This document shows positions 41,635 to 62,600 of a stretch of DNA of 64,000 nt, piece by piece. The notes under the pieces were generated by a model, which made no database searches, had not been told where the DNA came from, and was given only the letters and a program-made list of their open reading frames with translations. The stretch is from Zeus faber (lineage: Eukaryota > Chordata > Actinopteri > Zeiformes > Zeidae), in the NCBI GenBank assembly GCA_960531495.1, contig OY482848.1, positions 12,566,065 through 12,630,064 of the forward strand. The letters are read 5' to 3'. Every line of letters begins with the position of its first letter. Positions within the stretch are counted from its first letter, which is position 1. A program made the translations under genes and the position numbers.

Positions 41635-44600
41635 ATGAACAAGCAAGCGAGTAAAGAGACGCTTAAGGACAAAGTGAAGGGGATCTTTGGGCTTGGACCC
41701 CCACGCCCCCCCAGCAAGCAGAGCGACAGCAAGCCCTCAGAGTTCATCATCACCCACGACATCCTCAAGGTGTGTGGCTGCAGCCGGACAGGCCTTCACG
41801 ATTGACGTACATGCACGGCCAACGCGTTTTTACATAGACATGTAAGGTCAAGTTTAATATAATGTGAGATTGTCACCTTTTATAATAACTCTATTCATCC
41901 CAGGAGCTCCATCCAGACTGTGGCCTCAGCACCCGTATCCGGGAAATTAATCACGTGTGTGATTTGGCAAAAGCCAAGAAATTTGAGGAGGTGAGTCTGA
42001 TAATGATGCAATATTTAGTATGTGTTGCTACGATGTCATATTGCGCCATGGAAACTGACCGTCTTTTAATGTTTGATTACCGGTTTGTGGCCTCTTTTCT
42101 AGCATGCTGTGGAGGCCGTGTGGAAAGCAGTGGAGGACATGTTGGCACCGGATCAACCACCAGAGGCTCGGCGCGCTGTTCTGCTGCTCCTCAGAGCCAT
42201 CATCCAGGGACAGGCACGTATATGTACACACTGGCACACACAAACTAACAAGAGAATGACGTTCATCCAGTCAGTATTTTTTAAATCGTTTCGCTATTGT
42301 GTAACATGCATGTATTTGTGCATGTGTAGGGTGAGAGGCTGGGTCCTCTCAGAGCCTACTTCTTTGAGGTGATCAGAGACTACCAGCCGTCCAACGAGGA
42401 CCTCTCCGATAGACTGGAAGTATTCAAGGCCCTGACGGAGAATGGAAAAGACATAACATACCTTGAGGAGGATATAGGTAAAACTCCAAAACAAGTAAAA
42501 CATACTCAAACTATTCCAAACTACTGTAAAGCCACAATTGACTTTGCACAGTGATTTTGAAGTGGAGTTAAATAAATTCTGTGTTGAAGAGAAAACATGG
42601 ACTTTAGAGACATCTTCATATAGTTTTTATTTATTTTTTTTGTGCTGCAGCCTTGTGATTATAGTTACTCATTGGTTTTCCTGTCAAAGAGGACCTATTA
42701 TTCTCCTATTTAAACAAGGTAATATAGGTCTGAGGTCCCCAAAACATGCTTTTGAACAAATTATGCATTCTAGCCATTCTAACATGCCTCTATACCATCG
42801 TGTTCCAAAACGGGCTGATTTTTGTAGGCAAAGCCACCCTCCAGAGGCCCTGAGTTCTGTGAGTCAATGGTGTTTGAGCACAAGTTCTGGCTTCGAGCCA
42901 TTCTAACATGGGTCTATACCATAGTGTTTCAAAACTGTCTGTTTTCTGTGTGTGTATTGTAAATGAGCAGCCAAGCCCCTAGTTCTGAGCCAATGGGGTT
43001 TGAGCACAAGTTCCTGGTTCTGTGAGCCAATGGGATTTAGGCTTACTCCTGGCTCTGTTTTATTTACTCTGTAAACTTTCACTGATTTCACCTTATCAGT
43101 TCACTAAAGGTTGTTTCTGAACCTGAACCTGAACCCGTTACTGAATCTTCGCTCATATTCATCTACAAGGCATCATTTAAAAGTTTGTTCCGACTTTCAA
43201 GATTGGAGCCATGCGGGATATGGCGGGGCTGGGGCTCTTTTTTTGTCATTCAATTACGGAAACTTATATTTACATCTACGGTTTTGTTTGGGAAAAACAA
43301 GGAGTGGATCGCACCCTGTAGCTTACAGTACAGTCAACCTACCATGGACACACAGAGAAATTTTGGAACACAGATTCATTTCGAAATACTTACATTTCCC
43401 TCGTCTGTAGTTTTTTCACGGACAGTTGGTAATAATTCTTCTTTTTTTTTTTTTTAAGATTTGTGCTGGTCTCTGCGGCCAACACAACATTTCCCAGGAT
43501 TAGCTCCTAGCTTTGATGCTAGCAGGTTCAGTCATGCTCCAGGCGTCGGTGGAGTTACTCAGATGGTGGTGGTTCTAATTCTAACGTTTCTCAATGCTAC
43601 GCAGTAGTGGTGGACCGATAGGGGTTTTTCAATGGCCAATGCCGATATTTTGAGAGTGGGGGCAGCCTGGCCTGGCCGGGTGTGCTCGGTGCGGGGCTCA
43701 CAATGTAGCCTCCTTTGGTGGGGGGCGGACTCCTGTCACCATACCAGGCTGCCAGGGTACCTGTCCTCTGGTGCTCGTTGCTTGGGGGTCGTGCTGTGGG
43801 TGGTGGGGCCGTCTGCCGCCCTCTGTTCTGTTGTCCGCATGCTCAGCGGCTGGGGGCTGACCAGGAGCCTGATGGGGCCGCGGAGCTGCCCGGCATGGCG
43901 GAGGCGCATGGCGCATGCGCCCGTGGCTGGTTGCTGTAGGTTGGGTGCCACCAGGTACGGGAGGTGGGCGTGCTAGGGCGTGGTCGGGTCCCGGGTAGGG
44001 TCAGCTTGGTCGCTCCCCGGCCTGCTGCGCCCCTGCGTCAATCTGGTCGTGCTTCGCCTATCTCTCCCAGTGCCAAAACTCATACTCAGTTCATACACCA
44101 CACAATAGGCCTCGGGGTTGCGGGATGGGTGGGGTGTGAGCTGTGTGGGTGGGGATGCGGCGGGCAGCTCCCATCTTGCCTGTCACGCTCCTGCCCCAGT
44201 GTGCTTCTCGCCGTCCCGAAATTTGAATCCTGCTCATATTAGCTTAGAACACATACACTCGCACACCAATCCTACTCCGAACAACAGTCCACCAGACGAA
44301 GGTCTGCGGGGCAGGAGGGGTTGCGAGTTATGCATGTTCGACTTACCTGAAGGACTCGCACCCCCACACCCCGCAATTTTAACTGCAATTTCCAACAGCA
44401 CACATTGAGCACTGGGGTTTTCCGGGCTGGCGGGTTGCTGCGGGTTGCTGGCGGGTCGCTGGTGGGTCGGTGTGGGGACGTGGTTGTCCGGGGTGCCGTG
44501 GGTGGTGGAGGGCCCATTTATCTGCCGGCCTTCTGCCGTTGGCAGCGAACGGGGTGCGAACGTCAGGGTGCCCCGCGCTGAGCACACTCTGCTACGTGGA

Positions 44601-59600: not shown

Positions 59601-62600
59601 ATCAATCTGGCTACATTTGGAGCGCGCACCCCACTTGCTCTCATCCTACGGACCCCACCACCACCACCACCCCACACCGGCCTCCCACTCACTCTGCTCT
59701 CTGGTGTCCGCTGCAGAATGCACACCTCCACCACCACCTGCAGTTTGGGATCTGCCGATGAGAACGCCGTGACTCAGGCTGACGAGGGCTTGAAGACCGT
59801 CCATCTGGAGCTCACGGAGACCTGCCTGGACATGATGGCGAGATACGTCTTCTCCAACTTCTCCGCCCTGCCCAAGAGGTCGGTTCAGGATTTGACATGA
59901 TATGTCTCTTAGTGTCAAAGTAAGACATCCAAGAGGATGAAGCTCCCATGATCTATTCCTTCTTCCGCCCTAGGTCTCCGATTGCAGAGTTCCTACTGGC
60001 GGGGGGCCGCAGTATGACCTGGCTAGTGGGTAACAAGCTGGTAACCATAACCACCAGTGGAGGCGTACGGACCCAGGCACTACTGGGCCTGGACATGGCC
60101 GAGCGGCTGGGTGGAGGCGGGGAGATGACTAGGCAAAACCTTCACGCATCCACGCGCATGCACCATGGATTCATGTCTTGTTTTTCAATGTTAACCCTTC
60201 ATTAACTGTACTTCCTTTTTATTTAAACCAATCCTGTAGGTCAGATCCATCGCTACACACCCGTCTCACCAAGGAAGCCCCTGCCAAACTGGAGTCCCAG
60301 TCCAGCCAGCAGCTGAACAGAGCCACACGCATACGAGTCCGCTCCATGTCAGGTAATTTGAGATCTGGACAAATTCATTTATACTAGAATAATACTTATA
60401 AACTTAGAATAGGCAGCTCTGTGTCAGGGAACAATGTGCTTTATACCAGGTCGTCATCAGTTTCATGTCTCATACCTTGAATTGGATGCAGATTCCTAAA
60501 AATATATTGTTCTTAACTTATTTTTCTTTTTAAAAGACATATACGAGAATTAAATAAAAATGTGTTGTATTAGCCTAGTATAAACATATAATTTTTTTCA
60601 TGAAATCACGTCTTATTTTTGGGTCTCTGACGTTTGAATACTTGAATACTAAAAATTTGGCATCAAATCCCGTATAATTTTTTAGGACTTAATAATATAG
60701 ATGCAGCAGAGCGCTGCTGAAAGTATTACATTAAATTTCCCAGCACTAATATCAGTTAACAGCCTGAGCGTGTTTGGAAACGATGAGGAAAGACGTGGTA
60801 AGAATGTCCATGGTAAAATTTATATTGTGTTATTTGTTTTATTGCTTTAAGTGCTTTTCAGGTTTCAGGCAATGTATGTTGATCGATGTTTCTATCCAAA
60901 AACTTTATTTTAGAGAGAATTCGATAAAAGTGTGATAATACTGAACTTATTGTGCCAATAGAATGAGGTTGATTCTAATCTGTCTCTCTCTGTGTTTCAG
61001 GCGGCCACGCCCTGCGTCCAGGTCCTGCCCAGAGCCTCAGCCCTCTGGTGTCTCCCTCCGAGGGGGAGCTGGGAGCCTCTCTTTCCCCCCCGTCAGGCCC
61101 CAGTCTGGATGGACTGGGTCCTCCCTCCTCCACCTCTGCCCTCCCCTCTGCTCCTCCGCCGCTCAAAGACAATCCTAGCCTGGCCGAGTTCGTCCCCGTC
61201 CTCACGCAGGGCTGGGCCGAGATCTTCATCCGGCGGCCGTCTGGTACGCTTCCTTTTGTGTTTTGGCTCTCTGTATTTGAATGAATCCCTCCTGTTACTG
61301 TGCTGAAAATAAGCCCCCTCGTTTCTCTCTCTTCTCCCTGGCTCCCTCTGATCCCTCACTCTTTAGAAGTCTGTTAATTTGTCCCAGAATCACTCAGCGG
61401 CAGTCTCTTTCTTGAAATCAGCCTCCGGTCAATAAACATTGTTTTCAGTGGTCATTATCATCGCAATCTGTCTGGCGAAAAAGCTTTTCACTGCCAATTG
61501 TTGCTCTTGATGGGTGTCGTCATTGATTGCTGGAAGGATAAATTATAGTCCCAAAGCCCCGCTCTAATGGGTGTTTCAGCATTTTCAATAAGCGCGGTGT
61601 CCCTCTGTCTGCCCACATGTGTATAGGAAACACCAGCTGGCTCATGTGTCTAGAGAATCCTCCCAGCCCCTTCTCCTCAGAGCTGGGCAACATGCCACTG
61701 CAGGAGCTCTCCAGCGTGCTCATGGCCATGGAGGGCGTGAAGGAGCCGCCGGGCCAGACGGTCAGCGCCCCCGCCAGCTCCGCGGCCCCCGTTCCGGCCC
61801 CAGCCGCGGCCCCGGTCCCGCTGTCAGAACCCCTGCCCCACGCCCACAGCACCGCAGCTGGGAAGGCTCATCTGATTCAGCGCTCCAACACAGGTGGGAA
61901 GCATGTGTGTGATGAAGAGAGAGGGAGTCTGCTGTGTTCTAATTCAGTGGTTCTCAACACGGGGTCCAGGGACCCCCAGGGGTTCCACGAGGTCCCCAGC
62001 AGAATGATCAATAGTTAAATTGAACAACTTACAAGACGCTTACAACACCAATAGAGACCGTACAACAATGGCTATTTTGTTCACTGTTATCTCCTTAACA
62101 ATAGTATAGACAGTTATGGAAGTTTGGACTCAATCATATCCAACAATCAAATCTCAGATTGGAGTCCCAGAGACAAAGTCGTAATCAAATGGGCTCCGTT
62201 GCCTGATGCGTATAAAATTGAGTGTCCCTGATTTAAAGAATGTGGAAAATCACTGTTCTAATCAATCGGTTCCATACAGGTAAGAAGTTCCTGTCTAAAA
62301 ATAATACCTTTCACAGTTTCCTTTTGCCAAGCAGGTGAGCGCTGTGCGGCGGAGCTTTGTGGCTCTTCTAGTTTACAAAGAAGTTAAGTAGAGTTGCAGA
62401 ATGTATTGTTCCGCATGGAGCCCCTCTGATGGTCTGTTCTTGTTGCTGATTGTTGGCCTGAGCTGCTGCTGATCTTCTCACTGAGCTGAAATGAGTAGTC
62501 GGGTGACCTGCTTGTGCTCATCAGGTCAACCATCTTGAACAATCACTGCTGTCCCATAATGAACAATCACTGCCCAGCTTGTTTTCCTGAAAGCCTCCTT

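Follow-up and report, generated by a model that had tools for sequence, protein, structure and literature searches.

Why should a single vertebrate gene begin five of its introns with GC instead of GT? The question is raised by a stretch of 64,000 nucleotides (nt) from Zeus faber (assembly GCA_960531495.1, contig OY482848.1, positions 12,566,065 to 12,630,064, forward strand; hereafter the window), which holds the 5' part of tsc2, the gene for tuberin. An initial annotation, made from the letters alone, had proposed GC donors after tsc2 exons 3, 11, 14, 20 and 27; all five are present where it placed them, and a recount on an open-frame gene model gives the same proportion, 5 GC among 31 visible coding donors. 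GC-AG introns as such are a known kind, and the surprise lies in their clustering within tsc2. Published rates are 0.83% (junctions of the PMC13149111 data set) and 1.3% (61 species, PMC3033335). We think it likely that the five tsc2 introns are real, putatively U2-type GC-AG introns at ancient conserved positions, and that they arose by tolerated drift.

The model comprises tsc2 coding exons 1-31, which encode the 5' part of tuberin and span 41635..63052 on the plus strand, with exon 31 at 62963-63052. The joined frame is open throughout, and the remainder of the gene lies beyond the window; no 3' exons (32-41) were found in the readable part of the 40 kb that overlap the window end by 500 bases. 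Donors are GT in 26 cases and GC in five, and the acceptor is AG in 30/30. Exons 1-30 encode 1311 residues, of which 5-1281 aligned with human tuberin (9ce3_A) in a single stretch, with an E value of 0.

Each of the five introns has GC as its first two bases, an in-frame conserved junction and an AG acceptor, and all lie on the plus strand. Intron 3 (42214..42329, 116 nt, phase 0) runs from CAG/gcacgt to gtgtag/GG. Intron 11 (49077..49204, 128 nt, phase 0) opens with CCG/gcaagt and closes with tggtag/GA, the preceding exon ending at position 1257 of the fish coding sequence (CDS), while intron 14 (49947..50172, 226 nt, phase 0) reads AGG/gcaagc ... gtttag/GT after an exon that ends at CDS position 1599. 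In intron 20 (52323..52465, 143 nt, phase 0) the donor CAG/gcacac sits directly on a (CA)n microsatellite and the acceptor is ctgtag/AG; the residue at this junction matches human Q785. Intron 27 (60133..60239, 107 nt), the only one in phase 2, goes from TAG/gcaaaa to ctgtag/GT.

Are these junctions the right ones? We wrote a protein-to-genome aligner that charges the same cost for every donor dinucleotide and fixes the acceptor as AG, and ran it over 41601-53600 with human tuberin as query. Of the 23 introns that it returned, all at the coordinates of our hand-built model, 19 have GT and four (3, 11, 14 and 20) have GC, and an extra penalty of 8 on GC left this output unchanged. Intron 27 lies beyond the stretch covered by the aligner and is supported by frame, phase and a separate alignment of the exon 27 region to human tuberin; the residues adjoining that junction are poorly conserved, and the alignment crosses it. 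The initial annotation had called the GC sites the only in-frame junctions, which proved too strong: stop-free in-frame GT-AG pairs exist around all five introns (54, 30, 23, 43 and 43 for introns 3, 11, 14, 20 and 27, respectively). However, the pairs that we inspected, for each intron the four with the highest scores and the four displaced least, all alter the protein. Judged on flanks and acceptor, a score that does not charge for the rarity of the GC dinucleotide, the GC model beats every in-frame GT-AG pair at introns 3, 11, 14 and 20, so that at four of the five there is no comparable GT alternative.

Human TSC2 has counterparts of these introns, three of which agree by number or residue (11, 14 and 20) and one by phase (27). 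The last CDS positions of fish exons 11 and 14 are 1257 and 1599, matching human c.1257 and c.1599, and fish exon 20 ends at the residue aligned to human Q785, which we take to be c.2355 in the human numbering. Fish intron 3 corresponds to human c.336, by position only. Human introns at c.1257, c.1599 and c.2355 are on record in PMC11593644, including an intron variant at c.1257+ and c.2355+2_2355+5del, and Q785 is named there as an exon end. Human c.3284+1G>A (PMC7426365, PMC12816666) affects an intron of the same phase (2) as fish intron 27. Two further reports bear on the second intron base. The change c.1599+2T>C was listed, with no RNA test given in the section that lists it, for patient 65, a sporadic case, among seven putative splice-site mutations (PMC1592085), and c.2355+2T>A is mentioned in PMC8835853; the human base at +2 is therefore T at both positions. 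Human introns 14, 20 and 27 (older numbering), with their donor mutations c.1599+2T>C, c.2355+2T>A and c.3284+1G>A, thus occupy the same gene positions as fish GC introns, and at c.1599 the base change is identical, T>C at +2. It follows that the fish assembly carries the patient-listed change at intron 14: the reference state of the assembly is one that, in the human case, was put down as putatively mutating a splice site. The five fish introns do not flank the counterparts of the human alternative exons 25 and 31.

GC-AG introns are commoner in tsc2 than expected by chance and than in the rest of the genome as sampled, a conclusion supported by several comparisons. The other genes of the window have none (tnpo2 0/21, nthl1 0/5, nherf2 0/5, rln3 0/1, rfx1 0/1; 0/33 in total), which differs from 5/31 in tsc2 with p = 0.022 (Fisher test). 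The claim of the initial annotation that GC donors are missing from these genes thus stands inside the window, but rfx1 has one probable GC donor just outside it. That intron, of 92 nt, lies at about 9796-9887 of locus L006, on the minus strand of the same contig upstream of the window, and reads GAG/gcatgc ... gacag/TTC, the donor being followed at once by a (CA)n repeat. The probability of at least 5 GC donors among 31 is 6 × 10−6 at a background of 0.83%, 5 × 10−5 at 1.3% and 4 × 10−4 at 2%, values that flatter the finding because tsc2 was selected after the cluster had been noticed.

We therefore set tsc2 beside other genes of the same assembly (803 Mb in 153 contigs, searched in part; the window lies on the contig that we label C4). 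The sample comprised the 33 donors of the window genes, 11 from rfx1, 22 from a tnpo gene on C11, 8 from another on C17, 16, 15 and 12 from SERCA genes on C20, C11 and C7, 2 from mri1 and 9 from an SLC25A23/24-like gene. These genes were picked for convenience and not randomly, and several are paralogues. The SERCA count on C20 is without the first exons, some 4.0 kb of that 9.0-kb stretch being unreadable. Some rows were dropped: in SERCA on C11 a GC row from a 7-residue pseudo-exon, in mri1 a row produced by a gap in the reference protein, and in tnpo on C17 three rows (TA, GC and TT) around an exon broken by the aligner; in the SLC25A23/24-like gene a CA donor placed by the aligner was recounted by eye as GT. 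Summed by hand, the controls show GC at 1 of 128 donors, the one in rfx1, against which 5/31 in tsc2 gives p = 0.001. Restoring the four dropped rows of SERCA on C11 and tnpo on C17 brings the controls to 3/132 and p to 0.007. A strict flank filter applied to both sides, which removed 14 control rows including the rfx1 GC row and two other GC rows, left 3/18 in tsc2 against 0/76 (p = 0.006); unfiltered tsc2 against the strict set plus the window genes (0/109) gives p = 4 × 10−4.

What, then, could have put five such donors in one gene? In the account that we favour, T would have changed to C at donor position +2 in each of the five introns, and the spliceosome would still use the sites, U1 pairing despite the +2 mismatch with the help of G at -1 and A at +3. 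Both of these bases are found in 5/5 of the GC donors, and +3 A occurs in 27/59 GT donors of the window. The short introns (107, 116, 128, 143 and 226 nt) may perhaps also allow donor and acceptor to pair across the intron. In mammals the flanks of GC donors are nearer to consensus, and changes from GT to GC exceed those from GC to GT by 298 to 40 (PMC2490688). Sequence, frame, homology and clustering are direct observations; cells probably splice at these sites, lineage drift and not selection for regulation probably produced them, and the shortness of the introns may play a part. Tolerated drift is also simpler than an account based on regulated splicing. It was the better half of what the initial annotation had guessed: enrichment of GC-AG introns in tsc2 holds, and lineage-specific donor drift agrees with the human T at +2 at c.1599 and c.2355, a comparison limited to human.

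Several results weigh against this account. The GC donors match the consensus at 6, 6, 5, 4 and 4 of 7 positions (mean 5.0, versus 4.6 for GT donors), which is no strong compensation, and G at +5 is present in 3/5 and absent in 2/5. Their predicted U1 pairing is -5.5 to -2.9 kcal/mol, among the weakest 1-23% of 133 GT donors, while the same sites with T written in at +2 would form duplexes of -9.8 to -6.7 kcal/mol; that the donors are weakened, as first suspected, is thus borne out by calculation. Short as they are, the GC introns do not differ significantly in length from the remaining tsc2 introns (p = 0.17) or from the pooled introns (p = 0.23), and intron length was accordingly rejected as a cause. 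The strict flank filter also removes 5 of 23 tsc2 introns, namely GC intron 14 and four with GT. One in-frame GT-AG pair outscores the GC model at intron 27 (9.98 versus 8.52), at the cost of 165 nt (55 residues). Finally, drift alone leaves the choice of tsc2 over its neighbours unexplained.

Other candidate causes were tried and rejected. GC content at third codon positions is 0.71 in tsc2 versus 0.76 in tnpo2, and that of introns 0.41 versus 0.40, so that base composition does not account for the cluster; the lean of the acceptors described below (T for C) runs, moreover, opposite to the donor change (C for T). Donor 20 and that of rfx1 both lie on (CA)n, but CA repeats were not retained as a feature common to GC donors, the excess over the five tsc2 donors being non-significant (p = 0.14). 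By eye we located long microsatellites of (TA)n, (CA)n and (GT)n in tsc2 introns at about 47500-47575, 48800-48876, 50035-50147, 52323-52412 and 52890-52963; besides donor 20, which directly adjoins one, the GT donor 10 immediately precedes another. Intron 4 (42478-47170, 4693 nt) and intron 24 (53516-56952, 3437 nt) are far longer than most others of the gene.

The five introns share one further feature, at their other end. All finish in TAG, as do 7/25 of the tsc2 GT introns (p = 0.006) and 20/132 GT introns of known acceptor in the strict set, tsc2 included (p = 1.4 × 10−4, post hoc); with the rfx1 GC intron added, the figure becomes 5/6 (p = 7 × 10−4). Because it was spotted post hoc among several features, we treat this pattern as a lead only. 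It fits the weaker acceptors of human and mouse GC-AG introns (PMC7242645).

Weakness at both ends, in predicted U1 pairing and in TAG where CAG could stand, invites the thought that selection keeps the five introns weak. Splicing would then be slow or conditional, and tuberin output, and with it the braking of mTORC1, would be tuned. None of the GC intron lengths is divisible by 3, so retention would shift the frame of the message. There is precedent in intron 10 of let-2 of C. elegans, whose regulated splicing depends on its GC donor (PMC2490688), although regulation was tested in let-2 whereas in tsc2 only the sequence was read; and human and mouse genes with GC-AG introns have weaker donors and acceptors and are more prone to alternative splicing (PMC7242645). 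On the other hand, the GT introns of tsc2 also lean to TAG (7/25 versus 13/107 elsewhere, p = 0.06), so the acceptor signal may be partly gene-wide, and the GC intron of rfx1 ends in CAG. We consider selection for weak splicing unlikely, if worth keeping in mind. Its boldest form, which we put forward as speculation with little expectation that it will hold, would make tsc2 of this lineage a rheostat of many introns: five introns weak at both ends would be detained or spliced together according to cell state and so set tuberin output, a donor change listed in a patient having been fixed with compensation.

Alternatively, the whole species could have a high rate of GC-AG introns, with tsc2 in the upper tail. 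The probable GC donor of rfx1, a 95% interval for the control rate that extends to 4.3%, the two GC rows among those dropped and the convenient, partly paralogous choice of control genes all leave some room for this. Yet tsc2 stands apart from the controls in each form of the comparison, whether as summed, with rows restored or under the strict filter, and even a rate of 2% would seldom give five GC donors in 31. A species-wide cause seems to us quite improbable.

That the assembly is wrong here, or that this tsc2 is a decaying copy, is very hard to believe. No sign of error or decay was seen in the part of the gene that was read: 31 exons are in frame with no stop, and the model, for which AG acceptors were assumed, shows no damage at the remaining splice dinucleotides. 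At the DNA level, a 94-base query from exon 10 matched the 803 Mb assembly once. The nature of the changes makes decay or read error unlikely, since all five splice-dinucleotide changes are of the tolerated kind, T>C at +2; random damage would yield this with a probability of 4 × 10−6 if uniform, or 1.4 × 10−4 if transitions are favoured, the AG acceptors being taken as given. That other sites, with GT, are spliced and that the GC introns are an artefact of modelling we regard as scarcely credible, for despite the in-frame pairs at all five introns, including the one that outscores the GC model at intron 27, the inspected pairs change the protein, none reaches the GC model at the other four, and the exon ends at 11, 14 and 20 coincide with those of human TSC2.

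Two features were noted elsewhere. A large intron of nherf2 holds a long stretch of tandem repeats (29768-30301), with an open frame in units of 13 residues on the plus strand, and one exon of the SLC25A23/24-like gene (locus L009, about 4460-4480) contains a tandem duplication of four bases that shifts the frame against a human relative, either a real variant or a sequence error. One scan of viral contigs yielded no relatives of a 52-residue tsc2 exon. Among openly licensed papers we found nothing on tsc2 with GC-AG introns.

The fish introns come closest to the U2-class GC-AG introns of vertebrates (Churbanov 2008, PMC2490688; Abou Alezz 2020, PMC7242645), with which they share GC at +1 and +2, the AG acceptor and splice sites that are weaker at both ends than those of GT-AG introns; the fish five have, in addition, G at -1 and A at +3. 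They differ in abundance, around 1% in vertebrates as against 5/31 in this one gene, and in that all have TAG acceptors.

Classifying GT>GC donor changes is difficult in human genetics, since splicing is lost with some of them and kept with others. With five such donors, one of them identical to a patient-listed variant, this vertebrate tsc2 is a natural experiment on the contexts that tolerate C at +2. If the splicing of the five introns were variable, tuberin dosage would be set at the level of splicing.

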